Source: Pseudomonadota bacterium (lineage in GTDB: Bacteria; Desulfobacterota; Desulfobacteria; Desulfobacterales; Desulfolunaceae). From it: a DNA stretch of 56,509 nt. The position numbers and the translations under genes are program-made. The notes beneath the pieces were generated by a model that was not told the origin of the DNA, searched no databases, and was given only the letters and a program-made list of their open reading frames with translations. The number at the start of each line of letters is the position of its first letter. Position 1 is the first letter of the stretch. Positions 48,077 to 56,332 of the stretch are shown one piece after another. Location: assembly GCA_018818835.1 (NCBI GenBank), contig JAHIRD010000044.1, forward strand, positions 1-56,509. Direction: 5' to 3'.

Positions 48077-49141
48077 ATGGATAAATTTAATGCAGAAGGA
48101 CGACCTGCTCTGATAGGAAGCCTGCCCATGGACAACCATGAGAAGGCCACGGAACTTGTATTAAGCTATGCGTCTGAAATCCCCTTGTGGGTTCAGCTTC
48201 CGGTTTTTCATGAAGAGGGTATGATTGCGCAGTTTCTGCCTGGATTGCCCGGAGTGGTGACAGAAAAGGACAGGACCTTTATAGATAAAGATCATGAAGG
48301 ATTTGATGAGGATGTTCTGGGCTTTTACGAAGATTATTTGATGATATCCGAAGGCGGCGGGGACCTTAAAGAGTCACGCTTTGGGATGAAGGGCAATGAA
48401 TCCAGAGGGATTGTGGCTTTGAAACAAAAGATCAAGGCATCTGATGAAAAACCCTACGCCATCAAAGGCCAGATCACCGGACCCATCACCTTTGCAACAG
48501 GAACCTGTGACCGCGAGGGGCGGGCCATTTTTTACGATGACCAGTTGCGTGACGTGGCCATCAAACATCTGTCCATGAAGGCCGCCTGGCAGACCCGTGA
48601 GCTTTCAGAGTTTGGCCGACCCGTCATCGTTTTTTTCGATGAACCGGCCCTGGCTGGATTCGGCTCTTCGGCATTTTTGACCATTACCAAGGAATCGGTG
48701 AAAGAAGCCATTGGCGAGTTGAGTCAAGCGGTTCACGCACAGGGGGGCCTTTCAGGCGTTCATGTCTGTGCCAACACCGAATGGGACCTTCTTTTGGATT
48801 CGGACCTGGATGTGATCAGCTTCGACGCCTATTCCTATTTTGACAAATTTATGCTTTACGGCAGTAAAATCAAAAGGTTTCTGGACCGGGGCGGGATTTT
48901 GGCCTCGGGTATTGTCCCCACATCCCCGGCTGAAGTCATTGTCAAGGAGAGTGTTGAGTCCCTTTACTCCAAATGGGAGGAACAGACAAATCAGTTGATG
49001 GGCTTAGGGCTTTCCAGGGAAACCGTGGTGAATCAGACGTTGATCACGCCCAGTTGCGGTACCGGGTCCCTGCCCCTGGAACTTGCCATCAAGGTCCTTG
49101 AAATGACACGGGGTCTGTCCGATAAGGTCCGTGGAAAATAG
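48077..49141 (+). CDS. core MetE-like (cobalamin-independent methionine synthase / UROD fold) protein, 354 aa
   Basis: The sequence fits the catalytic C-terminal domain of MetE without the N-terminal half: GQITGPITFATG, VIVFFDEPALAGFGSSAFL, SGVHVCANTEWDLLLDSDLDVISFDAY and TPSCGTGSLP. The zinc ligands His229-x-Cys231 and Cys327 are in place. Full MetE is about 750 residues; the 'core' form of about 340-360 is known in some anaerobes to take a methyl group from a methylcorrinoid rather than folate. In a host with an acetyl-CoA pathway that would fit, but the donor is inferred. Single gene, divergent from tatA. Confidence 0.82.
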   Translation: MDKFNAEGRPALIGSLPMDNHEKATELVLSYASEIPLWVQLPVFHEEGMIAQFLPGLPGVVTEKDRTFIDKDHEGFDEDVLGFYEDYLMISEGGGDLKESRFGMKGNESRGIVALKQKIKASDEKPYAIKGQITGPITFATGTCDREGRAIFYDDQLRDVAIKHLSMKAAWQTRELSEFGRPVIVFFDEPALAGFGSSAFLTITKESVKEAIGELSQAVHAQGGLSGVHVCANTEWDLLLDSDLDVISFDAYSYFDKFMLYGSKIKRFLDRGGILASGIVPTSPAEVIVKESVESLYSKWEEQTNQLMGLGLSRETVVNQTLITPSCGTGSLPLELAIKVLEMTRGLSDKVRGK

Positions 49142-49225
49142 CCGGGTATTTACGGAAGAAACGTTGCCTGTTTAATGGACGGCACGATGAAGATATTTAA
49201 CATATCAACCAGATGAGGTTTTTTT

Positions 49226-50080
49226 ATGTCAGATTTAGAATCACGGGTGACCTTTACCGGCGCCCGGAAATATGTGCTGGATGACGAGCTCGCAAAGATC
49301 GTGAATATTTCCATGGCCCTTGAGATGCCTCTCCTATTGAAAGGTGAGCCGGGAACCGGTAAAACCATGTTGGCCCATGCCATTGCGGAAAATCTTAAGA
49401 TGCCTCTGATCGTTTTGAATGTGAAATCAAGCATGAAGCTGATCGATGCCCTTTATCAGTATGACACCCTGACCCGACTGAATGACAGCCGTTTTGGAGA
49501 TTCATCCCGGGATGTGAGCAACATCGAAGAGTACATCAAGATGGGAAAAATCGGCCAGGCCTTTACAACAGACCAGCGGACCGTACTTCTCATTGATGAA
49601 ATTGACAAGGCAGATACGGATTTTCAGGATGACATGCTGGATGTGCTTGACCAGATGCAGTTCGATATTATTGAGGTTGACAAGACCGTAAGGGCCATAA
49701 CCCGTCCTGTGATTCTGATCACCTCAAATGCCAAGAAAGATTTGTCCGATCCTTTTCTGGGCCGCTGTAATTTTCACCACATCGCCTTTCCTGACCCCAA
49801 GATGATGCGGAAGGTCATTGCTGTTCATTTCCCTGACCTCAGTTCCGATATGGCTGAAAATGCCATTGGAACCTTTTATAAATTGCGGGAAATGGACGGG
49901 ATCGAGAAAAAACCTGCCACACGTGAATTGATCAACTGGATCAGGGCATTGGATGCGGATCCTGATTTTACAGCCAAACAACTGATCAAGGGTGAGGTCC
50001 CTTTTCTGGGGGTTCTGTTCAAGAAAAGTCCTGATTATTCGCGGGCCCAGCAGCAATTGACCCGGAGACGTATGTTTTAA
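49226..50080 (+). CDS. MoxR family AAA+ ATPase, 284 aa
   Basis: LLLKGEPGTGKTMLAHAIAENLKMPLIVLNVKSS (Walker A), VLLIDEIDKADTDFQDDMLDVLDQMQFDIIEVDKTV (Walker B and sensor), and PVILITSNAKKDLSDPFLGRCNFHHIAFPDP (arginine finger region) define a MoxR-type chaperone. These ATPases usually insert metal or remodel a partner, together with a von Willebrand A protein encoded next to them, as here (50095). GAGG before ATG 49226. Confidence 0.95.
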   Translation: MSDLESRVTFTGARKYVLDDELAKIVNISMALEMPLLLKGEPGTGKTMLAHAIAENLKMPLIVLNVKSSMKLIDALYQYDTLTRLNDSRFGDSSRDVSNIEEYIKMGKIGQAFTTDQRTVLLIDEIDKADTDFQDDMLDVLDQMQFDIIEVDKTVRAITRPVILITSNAKKDLSDPFLGRCNFHHIAFPDPKMMRKVIAVHFPDLSSDMAENAIGTFYKLREMDGIEKKPATRELINWIRALDADPDFTAKQLIKGEVPFLGVLFKKSPDYSRAQQQLTRRRMF

Positions 50081-50094
50081 GAGGCTTTAAATAG

Positions 50095-51285
50095 ATGTTC
50101 ATCAATTTTTTTTATAAATTAAAAGAAGTGGGCTTGCCCGTGAGCCCCACCTCCTTCCTTATTCTGCAGAAAGCCCTGAAATCGGGTCTGGTGAATTCGG
50201 TGGATGACTTTTACACGGCTGCCCGGGCCATTCTGGTGAAAAGCGAACGCTATTTCGACCTTTATGACCAGGTCTTTGCCTTTTATTTCAAAGGCGTGGA
50301 ACTTCCTGACATGGAAGGGCTGGAAATGGATGAGGTGGCCAAGGCCTTGCTGGATGAATGGCTGAAAGATCCCAAACAGATGGCCGAGGCCCTGGGACTG
50401 GATGAAAAGACCCTGAATTCCTACACCCCGGAAGAATTGCTGGAGTATTTCAAAAAGCGGCTCCAGGACCAGACCGAGCGTCATGACGGTGGGAACAAGT
50501 GGATTGGAACCGGGGGGACGTCCCCGGTGGGCCATTCGGGCCACCACCCCGGAGGCATGCGTGTGGGCGGGGAATCCCGGAATAAATCTGCAGTCAAGGT
50601 GGCCGGTGAACGGCGATACAAAGATTATTCAGGCTCAGGACCCTTGACCCAGGCCATGATGGGCGAGGCATTGAAACGTCTTCGAAACCTTGTGCCATCC
50701 GGCCCCAAAGACAAGATCAATGTGGATGAAAGCATCTATCAGACCATGAAGAACGCCGGGGAAATAGAAATCGCATTTGAATCCAGTTTGCGTGACCGGC
50801 TCAAGGTGATTCTGGCCATCGACAACGGGGGCTGGTCCATGGATCCTTATGTTCCCATGGTCCAGACATTGTTTGATTACGCCAGGGCCCAGTTCAAGGA
50901 TGTGAAAACCTATTTTTTCCACAATACCATTTACGACAACGTCTGGGAGGATTCTTCACGCTACCGCAAGCCGGTGAAGGTGGACAGTTTCATGAAACGT
51001 GATCCTGACACCCGGCTTATTTTTGTGGGAGACGCCAGTATGGCCCCCTATGAACTCATGGCACGGGACGGCTCCATCTATGTCCAGGAGCGCAGTGGGA
51101 AGGCCAGTCTTGATCGTTTGAAATCCCTTGCGGATACCTTCAAACATTCCGTATGGTTGAACCCGGTGCCCGGGCACATCTGGCATTATACCCAGACCAT
51201 CAATGTGATCCGGGGCATTTTCCCCATGTTCGAATTGAGTCTGGACGGCTTGGAGCAGGCTGTCGCACAGTTAATGGCTAAATAG
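50095..51285 (+). CDS. CoxE-like von Willebrand factor A domain protein, 396 aa
   Basis: The N-terminal half is helical (FINFFYKLKEVGLPVSPTSFLILQKAL, a CoxE-type start), then a Gly-rich linker (GGTSPVGHSGHHPGGMRVGGE), and a C-terminal VWA domain beginning LKVILAIDNGGWSMDPYVPMV at residue 238. The metal-site motif DxSxS is altered to D243-N-G-G-W-S248, so metal binding through this motif is doubtful, although TRLIFVGDASM keeps a later Asp. It forms a pair with the MoxR gene (14-base gap). No carbon-monoxide dehydrogenase or other client is adjacent. A MITE-like repeat starts two bases after its stop. Confidence 0.88.
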   Translation: MFINFFYKLKEVGLPVSPTSFLILQKALKSGLVNSVDDFYTAARAILVKSERYFDLYDQVFAFYFKGVELPDMEGLEMDEVAKALLDEWLKDPKQMAEALGLDEKTLNSYTPEELLEYFKKRLQDQTERHDGGNKWIGTGGTSPVGHSGHHPGGMRVGGESRNKSAVKVAGERRYKDYSGSGPLTQAMMGEALKRLRNLVPSGPKDKINVDESIYQTMKNAGEIEIAFESSLRDRLKVILAIDNGGWSMDPYVPMVQTLFDYARAQFKDVKTYFFHNTIYDNVWEDSSRYRKPVKVDSFMKRDPDTRLIFVGDASMAPYELMARDGSIYVQERSGKASLDRLKSLADTFKHSVWLNPVPGHIWHYTQTINVIRGIFPMFELSLDGLEQAVAQLMAK

Positions 51286-51286
51286 A

Positions 51287-51437
51287 GATGGCGTCGTAAA
51301 AAGATCCATATGCGGCGTTATAGTGTTTGGCCGGACGTTCGACATACGACCAAGTATGCCTTCACGCCCGGCCAAACACTATGCCTTGCCTATGGACCTT
51401 TTTCCATAGACATCTATCGATTTTTTACGAGCTCATC
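51287..51437. repeat. MITE-like palindromic repeat, copy D (151 bp)
   Basis: Left GATGGCGTCGTAAAAAGATC, right (inverted) GATGAGCTCGTAAAAAATCG. The internal arms GTGTTTGGCCGGACGT and GGCCAAACAC, and CATACG/GTATG, build one long hairpin. It matches copy B along its whole length with few changes, and lies between the VWA gene and the Rieske-like operon. Confidence 0.88.
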
Positions 51438-51459
51438 ATCGTTGACCGTCCTTTCCTAT

Positions 51460-51508
51460 TCATTTGCCCAGCTTTTTAAAAGCTGGCCGCCGGAGGCAAG
51501 GGCTTAAA
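51460..51508. repeat. dispersed repeat before the Rieske-like gene
   Basis: CATTTGCCCAGCTTTTTAAA-AGCTGG forms a hairpin; GCTGGCCGCCGGAGGCAAGG follows. A related stretch, CATTTGTTCAGCTTTTTAAG and GCTGGTTGCCGAAGGCAACG, lies upstream of the amidohydrolase gene (54601-54713), split by about 60 bases. Both sit directly before plus-strand genes. Confidence 0.55.
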
Positions 51509-51522
51509 AAGGATAAGCGAAT

Positions 51523-51936
51523 ATGAAACTATTGAAAATGATTTTCGGGATTTGTGACACAGGTGGCCCGTCAGACGAGGGATGCTGGAGCGTTTCTGAC
51601 CATCAGATTGTTGTGGGAATGAACAGGGCCAAAGAAATTCTTACGCCGGGTGGGGCCGTCCGTCTTGAAGGAAAGGGCCTTTCGGGAAAAATTCTTCTGT
51701 TTCACGGGCTTGACGGGAAGTTCTATGCCGTGAAAAACAAATGCACCCATATCGGCGGCAGGCGGATTGATCCCACCATTGAACACGACCGCCTGAAATG
51801 CTGCAGCGTGATGGGATCGGTCTTCAATTACAAAGGAGAGGTGGTCTCGGGGCCTGCCAGAAAACCCCTGGTATCCTATCCTGTGACCACGGAATCCGGG
51901 CGTTTGATTATTTCCCTTCAAAAGGAAACCGCATGA
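51523..51936 (+). CDS. Rieske-like [2Fe-2S] protein with altered ligand set, 137 aa
   Basis: After a short N-terminal region (MKLLKMIFGICDTGG, two Cys), VRLEGKGLSGKILLFHGLDGKFYAVKNKCTHIGG matches the first Rieske motif (Cys74-x-His76). The second motif, usually CPWHGS, reads CCSVMGSVFNYKGEVVSGPARKPL: Cys94 fits, but the second His is Met97. The fold appears intact (length, GSVF, SGPARKPL), so a cluster with a Met ligand, a rearranged set using Cys93, or no cluster, are all possible. It overlaps the next small membrane gene as ATGA, so the three genes form one unit. No large oxygenase partner is encoded beside it. Confidence 0.82.
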   Translation: MKLLKMIFGICDTGGPSDEGCWSVSDHQIVVGMNRAKEILTPGGAVRLEGKGLSGKILLFHGLDGKFYAVKNKCTHIGGRRIDPTIEHDRLKCCSVMGSVFNYKGEVVSGPARKPLVSYPVTTESGRLIISLQKETA

Positions 51937-52145
51937 AAGGCAATGCCGGTGTGGCACGAATCCTGTTGATCGCTTCCATCATTCTGATGATCGGGGCCCT
52001 TGTGACCCTGATTCCTTTTGCCGGTGCAAGCAAACCCAATATCATGGGGTACCGATCCCTGTGCTCTTTTTCCCCGGTCAGTACCATCATCCTGTTGTTT
52101 GGTGCCAATACCTGTTACGGCATTAGAAAAAAGAAGTTTTTTTAA
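51933..52145 (+). CDS. small membrane protein, 70 aa (Rieske-like operon)
   Basis: MKGNAGVARILLIASIILMIGALVTLIPFAGASKPNIMGYRSLCSFSPVSTIILLFGANTCYGIRKKKFF: two hydrophobic segments separated by a loop with a Cys, and a second Cys near the end of the second. The ATG is inside the end of the Rieske-like gene (overlap ATGA) behind AAAGGA. Its stop is followed at once by the ATG of the next gene. Family unknown; a membrane anchor or electron-transfer partner for the Rieske-like protein is an inference from coupling. Confidence 0.72.
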   Translation: MKGNAGVARILLIASIILMIGALVTLIPFAGASKPNIMGYRSLCSFSPVSTIILLFGANTCYGIRKKKFF

Positions 52146-52328
52146 ATGAAAAAATTAGCGAGATTAGGATTAATCGGCGTTCTTCATGCCACGGTATACC
52201 TGTGGCTGCTTCCTCACCTGATTCTGCCCCGATTCGGAAGCCTTGGGTCTAAAATCACGGTTGGCGTTCTTATCGTTCTTTCCGTGATTATTCTGACCTC
52301 TGCCTTTGTTAAAAAGAAAAAACCCTGA
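52146..52328 (+). CDS. second small membrane protein, 60 aa (Rieske-like operon)
   Basis: ATG directly after the TAA of the previous gene. Hydrophobic segments LGLIGVLHATVYLWLLPHLIL and ITVGVLIVLSVIILTSAFV, then a Lys-rich end (KKKKP), which should stay in the cytoplasm. The first segment holds a His and is amphipathic. No family recognised. Confidence 0.7.
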   Translation: MKKLARLGLIGVLHATVYLWLLPHLILPRFGSLGSKITVGVLIVLSVIILTSAFVKKKKP

Positions 52329-52501
52329 TATTTATGTGAAACATTTACCGCATATTTTTTAACCACAATCTGCAAAACAAAATAGACCTGAGCATCTAAT
52401 GGCAAATGTTCAATGCCTTGTGCTGCCCATAGAAGCAAGGGAGTGTCCAGTAATAGCTTTATGTGCCCTCTTCCTTTATGGAATAGGGTATACTCTGTGT
52501 C
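52329..52501. other. gap after the Rieske-like operon
   Basis: No coding frame with a ribosome site. On the minus strand there are scraps that could continue the RCC1 remnant in shifted frames (for example GHSLA near 52420), but they are too short to call. Confidence 0.35.
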
Positions 52502-52642
52502 TTAATTACCTGGGCTTATGCAAACGGGTGACTCTTTCCAGGATGTTCCGTCTCCAAGTTGACCGGAAGTATTCTGTCCCCAGGCATAAAGAATACCACC
52601 TGTCTTTATTGCTACTTTGTGAAAATCACCGGCAGAAACCAT
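52502..52642 (-). pseudogene. RCC1-repeat gene fragment
   Basis: Read from an ATG at 52642 on the minus strand: MVSAGDFHKVAIKTGGILYA, WGQNTSGQLGDGTSWKESPV, CISPGN, stop. One RCC1 (beta-propeller) repeat of the type 'AGxxHxxAxxxDGxLxxWGxNxxGQLGxG'. A functional protein needs six or seven repeats. The upstream side is cut by the tandem repeat at 52651-52711. It is a relic of a larger secreted-type beta-propeller gene. Confidence 0.65.
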
Positions 52643-52650
52643 AGTGAATA

Positions 52651-52711
52651 ATTGGCCTGTCCCCAATTTTGTTATTGGCCTGTCCCCAATTTTGTTGTCC
52701 CCAATTTTGTT
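52651..52711. repeat. 23-bp tandem repeat ATTGGCCTGTCCCCAATTTT
   Basis: ATTGGCCTGTCCCCAATTTT-GTT occurs twice (52651-52673, 52674-52696), then a partial copy GTCCCCAATTTTGTT (52697-52711). The reverse complement, with CGGGGACAGG, is found at 56351-56384. The motif is of a type often seen around REP-associated transposase (RAYT, Y1) genes; none is present here. Confidence 0.75.
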
Positions 52712-52754
52712 CTCTGGTTCGCCAACAACCCCATTTATGAATAGGCCTCAAACT

Positions 52755-52783
52755 GTGCGCGTCCCCCTTGGGGGGATGCGCAC
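52755..52783. terminator. strong GC hairpin near the InlB-repeat gene end
   Basis: GTGCGC-GTCCCCC-tt-GGGGGGAT-GCGCAC, almost perfect over 29 bases, 58 bases after the stop of the minus-strand lipoprotein gene. No T-run, so it may act as a barrier or an mRNA 3' stabiliser. Confidence 0.5.
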
Positions 52784-52840
52784 AAATTTATCTCACAGAG
52801 GCTTTTGGTTGTGGCTTTGCCGAGCTGGAGGATAGGAATG

Positions 52841-54313
52841 TTAAAAAGAACCGTCCCAGCCAGCAATCCGGGCCCAGATCCACCAGGCGGCATAGGCTCT
52901 GCGGTTTCCGGTGATGTATTGGGGGTGGCTGCCTTCATTCGTGTGCGCCGGGTAAACAATGTCCCCTGAGGTCCAATTACGGCAGGGGAACCAATCGACC
53001 CCTTCGATAATATCCTCTGAATTCTGGTAATTGTAATGCTGAACATTGTCATTGCCGCTTTCATAGGGGTTGTAGGAGTCATCGCCGTAGTCATAGACAT
53101 CCTGGCTCCAGTAATCCAGACAGAAATAACCGTTGGCTCGGCAATGGTCAACGATGGCTTTATGGTTGTTATAAGGTGAATGGGCCGCATCCGGATCATC
53201 GCCATCGCTGCCCCGGGCATAGCCGGTCATCCAGACGAAGGTCACAGCATTATCCGATGTTCGGCCCTTTGATCCTCCAGCCCGGTACATGGTTGAAAGT
53301 TCATCAAAATTAGAGAGATAGGTCTGTACATTGTGGCCCTCAATACTGCACCACGACCACATGACCACATTGACATCAGCATAAGACCCGTTATCCAGAT
53401 AAGCTACCGTTCCCCTGAAGTAAGCTGTATGCCCGTTTTCATCCACGCCGTCATTACTGAGGTCCGTTCCGGAAGCGCCATTGTAATGGATATCCAATTT
53501 CCCGGCCACAGGCACACCGTTATATGAGAATGCGAACCGTGTGTCATCACCGTCCTTGTATTGTTCAAGGCCCTTCATGCCGGTCATGACCTGGGTGGAA
53601 TGGGAGGTGCCGCAATAGAGGATATGCAGGGTGTTCCGTGCGGCGGTCAGGGCGGATTCTGGAATCCTGCGCAGCACACTTTCCTTGGCAATGGTATGAT
53701 CAGCAATTGTTTCGCCCTCAGTCGGGATTACCTCAGTCCATGAGGCGTATAGAATGATATTTTCCGTCCCCATGGAAAGGGTGTTTCCCACGTAATAAGA
53801 GGTGCCTGAGCCGTCTGATGAAGTGTTCCATCCGTTAAATGTATAACCGGTTTGTTCAAGCGATCCGGTGTTCCCCAGAACGGAGATGGTCTGGCCTTCT
53901 TCATAATTCGCAGAGGTAGCAGGAACGCTGCCGTCAGTGGCGCCATTGCCATGGTAGGTTACGGTCCAGGTGGGATTGGCTGTCCACAGGGCGAACAACA
54001 CCACATCCTCGGAGTCCATGGCAAAGGTCTGCCTTTCGTTAAACGTGTCTCCGCTTCCGTCCGATTCGGTGTTCCAGCCGATAAAGGTGTAACCGGTACG
54101 CAGAAGGTCTCCTGAATTACTTAAAACCGTGACCGTTTCCCCTTCCGCATAGGCATCGGAATCAAGGGGAACAGAACCGCCCGTTGCACCATTTTCGTCA
54201 TATATAACTATACTCGTGATTTCTCCTCGGGGTGTTGTGTTATCTCCGCATCCCGAAACCAAAACAACCGCGATCATCATAAGAATCGCCATGAATTTCA
54301 ACGTAACCGTCAT
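52841..54313 (-). CDS. lipoprotein with two InlB-type repeats and a GTSHS domain, 490 aa
   Basis: MAILMMIAVVLVSGCGDN gives lipobox VSGC. Two Listeria-Bacteroides (InlB B / Flg_new) repeats follow at about residues 35-190: GYTFIGWNTESDGSGDTFNE with FALWT, and GYTFNGWNTSSDGSGTSYYV with LYASWT. The C-terminal 270 residues start LHILYCGTSHSTQVMTGMKGLEQY and end HTNEGSHPQYITGNRRAYAAWWIWARIAGWDG. GTSHS and the late SHP could be nucleophile Ser and a His of an SGNH-like hydrolase; that is an inference from motif spacing. AAGGAG before ATG 54313. Surface-exposed role likely. Confidence 0.8.
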   Translation of the reverse strand: MTVTLKFMAILMMIAVVLVSGCGDNTTPRGEITSIVIYDENGATGGSVPLDSDAYAEGETVTVLSNSGDLLRTGYTFIGWNTESDGSGDTFNERQTFAMDSEDVVLFALWTANPTWTVTYHGNGATDGSVPATSANYEEGQTISVLGNTGSLEQTGYTFNGWNTSSDGSGTSYYVGNTLSMGTENIILYASWTEVIPTEGETIADHTIAKESVLRRIPESALTAARNTLHILYCGTSHSTQVMTGMKGLEQYKDGDDTRFAFSYNGVPVAGKLDIHYNGASGTDLSNDGVDENGHTAYFRGTVAYLDNGSYADVNVVMWSWCSIEGHNVQTYLSNFDELSTMYRAGGSKGRTSDNAVTFVWMTGYARGSDGDDPDAAHSPYNNHKAIVDHCRANGYFCLDYWSQDVYDYGDDSYNPYESGNDNVQHYNYQNSEDIIEGVDWFPCRNWTSGDIVYPAHTNEGSHPQYITGNRRAYAAWWIWARIAGWDGSF

Positions 54314-54600
54314 TGTCTGCTCCTTGACCTGTTTTGCGTTAAATAACAGAATAATAGCGACTTATTTTTCAAGCTTCATCCTTGAAAAGCCGGGTTTATC
54401 CTTTGTAATGACGCCTGGATTGAACTTAAATAATGCAAGATTGAAGCCATGTTTTCGAGCACTCGCGTATACCTGAACGGATCGTTTTGATACGGCTTCA
54501 TTTGTCTGTGCTGTTTATAACCCTTGATGTCTATTGGAATTTGTGGTTTTAACGGTAGGGTAAAACCGAATGAATTGTCATCTGCCAGTCCTTCTCAATC

Positions 54601-54713
54601 CATTTGTTCAGCTTTTTAAGCTTGTCCTTGCATAGGTGGGGAAGCCTGCCCGGTGGAGTGAGGGGCTTGTCCCCGGTAAGGTGGGGAGCTGGTTGCCGAA
54701 GGCAACGGCTTCA
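54601..54713. repeat. dispersed repeat before the amidohydrolase gene
   Basis: CATTTGTTCAGCTTTTTAAG and GCTGGTTGCCGAAGGCAACG match the repeat at 51460-51508 but are separated by about 60 bases that include GGTGGGGAAGCCTGCCCGG and GGGGCTTGTCCCC stems. In both places the repeat stands directly before a plus-strand gene. Confidence 0.5.
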
Positions 54714-54766
54714 ATCAGAATAAAATTATGATAATAACTCTATTTAGTAAAGGGATACGAACATCA

Positions 54767-56332
54767 ATGATAAAAAACTTAAGCCGGAGGGATTTTATGA
54801 TGTACGGGTTGCTTGCGACCGGGACACTTGCTCTTTCCGGGGCACCCGGTTGCGCCATACAAAAAAAGCATGTTCCGGATTATGATCAGGACACGCCATT
54901 TATTTTGACCCATGTCAACGTGGTTGATGTGATTTCCGGCCAGGTCACCCCGGATGCCCATGTGATCATTGACAGCATTGGGAAGATTATTTCCATGGGC
55001 CAGGGGCCTGTGGAACTATCGCCCGGTCACAGGGTTATCGATATGAAAGGGCGCTACCTGACCCCAGGCCTTATCGACGCCCATTGTCACAGCACGGTTT
55101 CCCCTGTGTTTGCCATGCGGATGGCGGATCTTGTTAAACATGCCCGGCAGCAGAAAATGAATTATGTGAATACCATCAATTCCGGGGTGACTACCATCCG
55201 GGACATGGGGGCCTTCACGGGTATGCTCCGATGGTTTATGAGGGATATTGAAAAGGGGCGGCTTCCAGGACCCAGGGTGGTTTACTGTAATTCCATCCTC
55301 AACGTCAAGGGCAGCCATCCTGAGATTCCCCCGTCGGATGTGAATTTTTTTGCCCGGCCTGCTTCGGTGTTTATGGGCATGATGATGAGTAACTTCAAAG
55401 GACCTGATCAGCTGGCCTATTACCTGGAAGAAAATGCCCGTGGGGCTTCGTTTATCAAGCTTACCCTGGATAACAAAACGATTTTCTGCAAGAAAGATCC
55501 AACGCTCCCTGTTTATTCAACCAAAGAACTGGATACGATCTTTGGTTATGCCGAAAAAAAAGGCTTACCGGTGGTGGGCCATCACCATTATGTCTTTGGT
55601 TTTGACCGGGCCATGGAATACCCCTTTCATTCCATTGAACATGTGGTGTCGGATCAGTACCTTTCCGATGCCCAGGTCCAGCGCATGGCGGATCGAAAAG
55701 TGGCCATCGTGCCCACCTTGACCATTGCCCAGTCCTATCTGATGGAGGAGGCATTTGATGGTATTCCGGCTGAACTCAAAAGTGACTGGGTGGATGACGA
55801 GTTAAAGGTACGCAGGCATTATTTTGACATGGAAGCCGGGAATCATTGCGAGCCGTCCCTCCATGCCCAAAATTTGGCCATGCTGGACAATTACAAACGT
55901 TATAAGCAATCATCACTGTTTGAACATAAAAAATTTCTCGTTAATCCTGAGCTTTACTTTGGCATGGTGAACAAGGGCTTTGCCAATCTCAAAAAAATGA
56001 AAGATGCCGGCGTATTGATCGGTTGCGGCATTGATGCGGGTATGCCCTTAAATTATTTCGGGGGTCTTTACAGGGAATTTGAAATTTTCCAGCGCCTGGG
56101 CTTTACTTCCCTTGAGATCCTTCAATGCGCCACCATCAACAATGCTAAAATTTTGAAGATGGACGACTCCATCGGCTCCCTTGACCCAGGCAAATGGGCA
56201 GACATGGTGGCCTTTGATGACAACCCCCTTAGGGATGTCCAGGTTCTTAGAAATCCTGCCATGGTGTTCAAACAAGGCCAATTGATGTACTCCAGCCGTG
56301 ACCTGAGCGGTGAAAGTGCTTTTTCGTCCTGA
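54767..56332 (+). CDS. Tat-exported amidohydrolase, 521 aa
   Basis: MIKNLSRRDFMMYGLLATGTLALSGAPGC is a twin-arginine signal (SRRDFM) ending in a lipobox-like APGC. The body is an amidohydrolase barrel: DMKGRYLTPGLIDAHCHS (HxH metal ligands), FIKLTLDN (bridging Lys position), VVGHHHY, HSIEHVVSD and IGCGIDAGMP (Asp), plus GSLDPGKWADMVAFDDNPL at the end. Members hydrolyse amides or prolidase-type dipeptides; substrate unknown. With Tat export and metal site intact it should act in the periplasm, possibly lipid-anchored. Start ATG 54767 gives a clean signal; 54728 is an alternative without a ribosome site. Confidence 0.88.
   Translation: MIKNLSRRDFMMYGLLATGTLALSGAPGCAIQKKHVPDYDQDTPFILTHVNVVDVISGQVTPDAHVIIDSIGKIISMGQGPVELSPGHRVIDMKGRYLTPGLIDAHCHSTVSPVFAMRMADLVKHARQQKMNYVNTINSGVTTIRDMGAFTGMLRWFMRDIEKGRLPGPRVVYCNSILNVKGSHPEIPPSDVNFFARPASVFMGMMMSNFKGPDQLAYYLEENARGASFIKLTLDNKTIFCKKDPTLPVYSTKELDTIFGYAEKKGLPVVGHHHYVFGFDRAMEYPFHSIEHVVSDQYLSDAQVQRMADRKVAIVPTLTIAQSYLMEEAFDGIPAELKSDWVDDELKVRRHYFDMEAGNHCEPSLHAQNLAMLDNYKRYKQSSLFEHKKFLVNPELYFGMVNKGFANLKKMKDAGVLIGCGIDAGMPLNYFGGLYREFEIFQRLGFTSLEILQCATINNAKILKMDDSIGSLDPGKWADMVAFDDNPLRDVQVLRNPAMVFKQGQLMYSSRDLSGESAFSS

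Follow-up and report, generated by a model that had tools for sequence, protein, structure and literature searches.

A Rieske-like protein family with a CxH...C-C-S motif and no second histidine ligand

The window analyzed here, a stretch of 56,509 nucleotides (contig JAHIRD010000044.1 of assembly GCA_018818835.1, from the Desulfobacterales), carries a gene for a small Rieske-like protein, which is preceded by an AAA/MoxR-like ATPase gene and a VWA protein gene and followed by genes for two small membrane proteins (Table 1). The original prediction described the Rieske-like protein as having Met in place of the second His ligand and read it, together with the two small proteins, as a membrane-tethered Fe-S module. 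Its account of the reading frame (length, C74-x-H76, C93, C94, and M97) is correct throughout, and motif 2 reads C93-C94-S95-V96-M97, with His expected at 97. The tight spacing of the three genes is also as it described: the TGA stop of the Rieske-like gene (51934-51936) overlaps the ATG of the 70-aa gene (51933-51935) as ATGA, and the TAA of the latter (52143-52145) abuts the ATG of the 60-aa gene at 52146.

Table 1. Genes and motif codons at the Rieske-like locus of the window
Feature	Position	Strand	Remark
AAA/MoxR-like ATPase gene	49226..50080	+	Paired with the VWA gene
VWA protein gene (CoxE/MadC-like, weak)	50095..51285	+	Upstream; relatives in 153/194 genomes
Rieske-like gene	51523..51936	+	137 aa, CxH...CC-S type; from ORF, Pfam, and alignment
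Motif 1 codons, Cys74-Thr-His76	51742..51750	+	Invariant in alignments
Motif 2 codons, Cys93-Cys94-Ser95	51799..51807	+	In 48/48 relatives aligned without a motif filter
Met97 codon	51811..51813	+	Place of the canonical second His; varies among relatives
70-aa small membrane protein gene	51933..52145	+	Local neighbor, no general partner
60-aa small membrane protein gene	52146..52328	+	Local neighbor, no general partner

Is this a Rieske protein at all? The sole Pfam profile matching the 137-aa protein at E values up to 1 is the Rieske domain, PF00355 (30.8 bits against a cutoff of 20.3); there was no match to the CDGSH (NEET) profile. A structure model, built from two sequences (the window protein and that of locus L002), has a mean pLDDT of 68 and drops below 50 at residues 78-88, i.e., it is weak at the decisive loop. 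Its best Foldseek match is a Rieske ferredoxin (E 4e-6), and VIA-align placed 99 of its residues on Rieske ferredoxins (Z 10.7, rmsd 2.3); on a model of this confidence, the predicted fold is that of a Rieske protein. The canonical Cys2His2 site is another matter: the first motif, CxH, is present in 48/48 relatives, but the second, CxxH, is absent, with no His at 97 in either the 60 distinct relatives or the 48/48 aligned without a motif filter. NCBIfam equivalog cutoffs for dioxygenase ferredoxins (HcaC and others) were missed (36.4 bits at best, against 150). The marks of a bc1 or b6f Rieske subunit are likewise lacking, as there is no membrane anchor (no hydrophobic segment in a 19-residue hydropathy window, maximum 0.69) and no cytochrome b or c ORF among those scanned nearby. 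The statement that no oxygenase, bc1, or b6f partner is adjacent holds for the ORFs scanned at 48077-56332.

Could the altered motif be damage in a single copy? The nearest named relative, at locus L002 in a metagenome-assembled genome of Desulforapulum autotrophicum, is identical to the window protein at 100 of 136 aligned residues. Between the two genes dN is 0.21 and dS, near saturation, is 1.64; by this comparison (dN << dS) the gene is under purifying selection. A mutated pseudogene among homologs with a normal CxxH was named in the original prediction as the case that would undo it, and the close family contains no such homolog (0/60). Normal CxxH was confined to 15 canonical Rieske sequences, which are more distantly related, and the one further PF00355 place in the same genome is a canonical Rieske protein (CTHLGC...CPCHGS). 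The full reading frame, the low dN relative to dS, and the inherited family rule out a decayed copy.

How far does the family extend? At E < 1e-13, full relatives occupy 48 places in 47 of 194 related genomes, the genome of the window included, a count that leaves out ~50 weaker places (E 1e-9 to 1e-3). When these 48 were aligned without a motif filter, with L002 standing for L004 of genome G001, C74, H76, C93, C94, and S95 were present in every one. Among 395 genomes of the phylum, 31 had a match at E <= 1e-10, and the 30 read (all except G221) comprised 17 of the CC type, i.e., with the vicinal Cys pair, 3 of a cousin type, and 10 canonical proteins. Together, the 194 related genomes, the 395 phylum genomes, the relatives of one cousin, and a plasmid yielded 78 distinct Rieske-domain sequences: 60 CC type, 15 canonical, and 3 cousins. 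The pattern that defined the CC class of 60 already required C74, H76, C93, and C94, so conservation of those four is circular there and the unfiltered figure is 48/48. Beyond the phylum, the search covered plasmid, phage, and viral collections plus one single-protein scan of contigs that is insensitive to distant relatives. Two plasmid records matched, one of which belongs to the CC family; 50,697 phage records gave no match; and viral contigs gave none with two DNA patterns and, with a third, two stretches, neither having an ORF > 90 aa that bears CxH..C. The contig scan returned a second locus, L003, without a Rieske-like protein, which was dropped.

Residue 97 varies across the 60 distinct relatives (Ser in 24, Asn in 15, Gly in 14, Met in 4, and Phe in 3). 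Met97 is confined to the window protein and those of L002, L006, and L008, and Met as the characteristic residue or ligand, the headline of the original prediction, is ruled out. His at 97 together with the double Cys was found in none of the 78 sequences, and no other His is conserved (at least 80%) among the 60. The extra Cys93, mentioned only in passing in that prediction, proved invariant in the 48 unfiltered relatives. Across the alignments, the fixed feature is CxH...C-C-S: a loop 2 one residue longer than the canonical one, with a second, vicinal Cys.

MAFFT opens a one-residue gap opposite Cys94 in all 15 canonical relatives, where loop 2 reads C-PCHKSxF, compared with C-C-S-V-S-K-S-T-F in the CC type; the spacing from H76 to C93 is 15 or 16 residues in 58 of the 60. 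Counted from motif 1, Cys93 would be the counterpart of the canonical Cys, whereas an ungapped count from the KSxF side would make it Cys94. Loop 2 can thus be aligned in two ways, and the pairing of Cys94 with Met97 that was first proposed is one of two options. The cousins (L068-L070) also have the longer loop 2 and no second His; they keep Cys93 and Ser95, with Ala, Ser, or Val at 94. Their overall pattern is CxH...C-x-S-x-G, without the vicinal Cys, and two of them (L068 and L069) look lipoprotein-like by eye. A tree of 48 rows, which took 30 of the 60 CC-type sequences, separates the CC family, the cousins, and the canonical proteins with supports of 94/83, 99/94, and 99/96. Because its root is arbitrary and 94/83 lies under the 95/80 mark, we can only infer the direction of the loop change, by which one residue would have been inserted in loop 2 and the second His lost.

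Do the two small membrane proteins belong with the Rieske-like protein? Their relatives adjoin each other in six genomes of the same bacterial family (G002-G007), and the 9-13 kb retrieved at each of these places contains no Rieske relative (E <= 1e-3). The pair stands beside a Rieske-like gene in 2 of 55 loci, those of the window and L002, the 55 being 52 of CC type (49 from genome searches, L002, the plasmid locus L081, and the window) and 3 cousin loci. On both counts the membrane-tethered three-protein module is rejected. What survives of the original prediction is the inherited change of ligand set on an intact Rieske fold, supported by the Pfam and fold matches and the alignment of relatives; the more general CxH...C-C-S peculiarity replaces both the Met and the membrane-module readings. 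The two helices ascribed to the 70-aa protein are plausible, although 19-residue hydropathy, which peaks at residue 10, gives a single strong segment; the 60-aa protein has a strong second segment and a weaker first. An NAD synthase gene adjoins the pair in both loci scanned (L121 and L122). Alone, the 70-aa type neighbors histidine kinases (L133; L134, in the genome of the window; and L136), whereas Mur ligases adjoin the 60-aa type (L130 and L131). The pair (window 51933-52328; L121-L126) is conserved on its own in the bacterial family, with varied neighbors, and a stretch reading GASKPNIMG looks invariant between the 70-aa protein and its L002 relative.

We also asked whether any other gene accompanies the family. 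Neither a listing of neighbors nor a Pfam tally, which covered 103 of 104 same-strand neighbors of 54 loci (the one omitted being an over-long L002 ORF that contains the 60-aa relative), revealed a constant partner; such counts are approximate, since they rest on our own gene calling and contig ends clip several loci. The commonest neighbor family in the tally is cNMP-binding (6/103), and a single cNMP-binding/DUF4388 protein has downstream relatives in just four loci (L138, L140, L147, and L150). In 5 of the 55 loci (L142, L145, L157, L165, and L167), the closest upstream gene on the same strand encodes a molybdopterin oxidoreductase, at 33-322 nt; for the two scanned, the best NCBIfam match is formate dehydrogenase alpha, at 210-221 bits against 666. 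These five enzymes appear formate-dehydrogenase-like and of one family. Ferredoxin-like proteins of one family (two scanned) occur in six loci at varied distance, and L145 and L149 each have an OYE-type flavoenzyme as the next gene downstream (the L149 enzyme scanned). The VWA gene is near a Rieske-like gene in the same 2 of 55 loci as the small pair, and its relatives occur in 153 of the 194 genomes, so it is not specific to the Rieske-like gene. The AAA/VWA pair of the window missed the NCBIfam equivalog cutoffs (MadB, 114.5 against 475; MadC, 12.2 against 600). We regard this pair and the small membrane proteins as locally derived neighbors outside the general mechanism, perhaps co-transcribed with the Rieske-like gene here.

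The plasmid member, WP_025344708.1 (L081, Sulfurospirillum plasmid pSulSP), reads CTH...QCCSLN, with Asn97 in place of Met97, and is 40% identical to the window protein over 88%. The cores of both published SMUL_1574 primers match L081 at 7995 and 8108, which identifies it as the counterpart of SMUL_1574 of Sulfurospirillum multivorans. One study (PMC7755780) lists SMUL_1574 as a Rieske homologue in which CxH(x)CxxH has become CxH(x)CxxN, places it in one transcript with SMUL_1573, SMUL_1575, and SMUL_1576, and gives a log2 fold change of 8.7 for tetrachloroethene versus fumarate. A proteome study (PMC4585668) reports the flavoproteins SMUL_1573 and SMUL_1575 as detected and SMUL_1574 and SMUL_1576 as undetected, and suggests a role for the two flavoproteins in corrinoid biosynthesis. 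SMUL_1574 belongs to the same family as the window protein (CTH...QCCSLN) and differs from it in context, having flavoprotein genes in an organohalide-respiration region and no MoxR/VWA or small membrane pair. A relative of one putative flavoprotein co-transcribed with SMUL_1574 lies 2.1 kb upstream in L153. The missing second His has been remarked on once in print, for SMUL_1574 (PMC7755780); searches of an open-access library turned up no description of the CC family or its double Cys.

How does the window protein relate to better-known systems? It shares fold, size, solubility, and CxH with the Rieske-type ferredoxins of aromatic dioxygenases (2de5_E, 2qpz, and 3dqy). These, however, have CxxH where it reads C-C-S-x-x, with no His and a loop 2 one residue longer (against the 15 canonical relatives), and its gene, unlike theirs, has no oxygenase neighbor. 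The arsenite oxidase Rieske subunit AioB (1g8j_D; Z 7.9 to the model) is encoded with a molybdopterin enzyme, as are the family's genes in 5/55 loci, but the window has no Mo enzyme and none of the Mo proteins scanned comes near the arsenite-oxidase cutoff. NirD (2jo6; Z 8.3, rmsd 3.6, 101 residues aligned) likewise combines a Rieske fold with altered ligands. Its ligand motifs are gone, whereas the CC family retains an invariant CxH and motif-2 Cys. NEET (CDGSH) proteins bind their [2Fe-2S] cluster through 3 Cys:1 His (PMC11138216); the likeness lies in that ligation, which is only proposed for the window protein, and fold and motif differ.

What kind of center might such a site hold? Slightly on the favorable side of even, in our judgment, is a widely inherited Rieske-fold [2Fe-2S] protein that would have one of two ligand sets: 3 Cys:1 His, from CxH and the two adjacent Cys, or 2 Cys:1 His, in which Ser fills the fourth site or the site stays open. 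We know of no characterized Rieske protein in which a vicinal Cys pair, or a Ser or open site, completes the ligand set with CxH. The fuller reading, which we put forward tentatively and at a little under even, is a soluble electron carrier with a noncanonical [2Fe-2S] center, putatively 3 Cys:1 His. The 137-aa protein would be a probably cytoplasmic one-electron carrier on a Rieske fold. One iron would be bound by Cys74 and a Cys of the vicinal pair, the other by His76 and the remaining Cys of that pair, giving a NEET-like ligand set within a Rieske scaffold. Having one His less, the center would be expected to show a lower potential than canonical Rieske centers, and the protein may exchange electrons with partners that vary by lineage, either flavoproteins or molybdenum oxidoreductases. 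A retained cluster with altered ligands is suggested by the preserved fold, CxH, the two motif-2 Cys, and purifying selection; a redox carrier is suggested by the tetrachloroethene-induced flavoprotein operon of Sulfurospirillum and by the Mo and OYE neighbors in some loci. Several points weigh on the other side. Vicinal Cys at a strand-loop junction would have to rearrange to reach both irons; the cousins retain C93 and S95 yet lack C94, which speaks against a strict need for C94; no neighbor is constant; and the SMUL_1574 protein went undetected in the proteome (PMC4585668).

Those cousins lead to an alternative we consider unlikely, in which Cys74 and Cys93 would hold one iron and His76, with Ser95 or water, the other, leaving a free site that would allow sensing or catalysis. 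C93 and S95 are common to the CC family and the cousins, which share the longer loop 2; S95 is present in 48/48 family members, and C-x-S echoes the C-x-H of loop 1. Yet C94 is invariant in the main family and hence has some role, just three cousins were found, and Ser is a rare cluster ligand. Somewhat unlikely, too, is loss of the cluster altogether, with C74, H76, C93, and C94 forming a site for Zn or another mononuclear metal, or a redox-active Cys pair, and the Rieske-fold scaffold taking a structural or binding role comparable to that of NirD. NirD shows that a Rieske fold is viable without a cluster, every CC relative lacks one of the two canonical His ligands, and CxH together with CC could plausibly make a Cys3His Zn site. 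Unlike in NirD, however, C74, H76, and a motif-2 Cys stay invariant, and redox-enzyme neighbors in several loci, together with the tetrachloroethene-induced flavoprotein operon of Sulfurospirillum (PMC7755780), also speak against such a loss.

The gene order of the window invites a further reading, a five-gene unit in which the MoxR/VWA maturation system and the two small membrane proteins would insert or anchor a Rieske-like metal center. Order and orientation are the same in the window and L002, and MoxR/VWA pairs mature metal centers elsewhere (CoxDE and NorQD). Set against this are VWA relatives in 153 of 194 genomes versus the Rieske-like gene in 47, the VWA gene and the small pair each beside a Rieske-like gene in 2/55 loci, and the small pair standing on its own in six genomes; we consider the unit highly improbable.

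The Rieske site is the classic example of how ligands set the potential and proton coupling of an iron-sulfur cluster. A family in which one His was dropped and an adjacent Cys gained would directly test the ligand-potential rule and show how such a site evolves. It would also point to a likely redox component of Desulforapulum relatives and of Sulfurospirillum respiring tetrachloroethene, where the gene is strongly induced, and it illustrates that the label "Rieske 2Fe-2S domain-containing protein" (e.g., of WP_025344708.1) can mask the absence of the defining motif.

Two further features of the window deserve mention. A palindromic repeat with the core ATAGTGTTTGGCC lies at 51320-51382, between the VWA and Rieske-like genes, and a string similar to the repeat opens L002. 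In the genome of the window the core is found 84 times in forward and 78 times in reverse orientation, whereas a reversed control gave 0 and 1 copies; among the copies listed, many are inverted pairs ~50 nt apart, and the repeat looks like a REP- or MITE-type element. On the minus strand, at 52841-54313, the window encodes a protein of 490 aa that carries InlB-type (Listeria-Bacteroides) repeats, matched by Pfam Flg_new and Flg_new_2.
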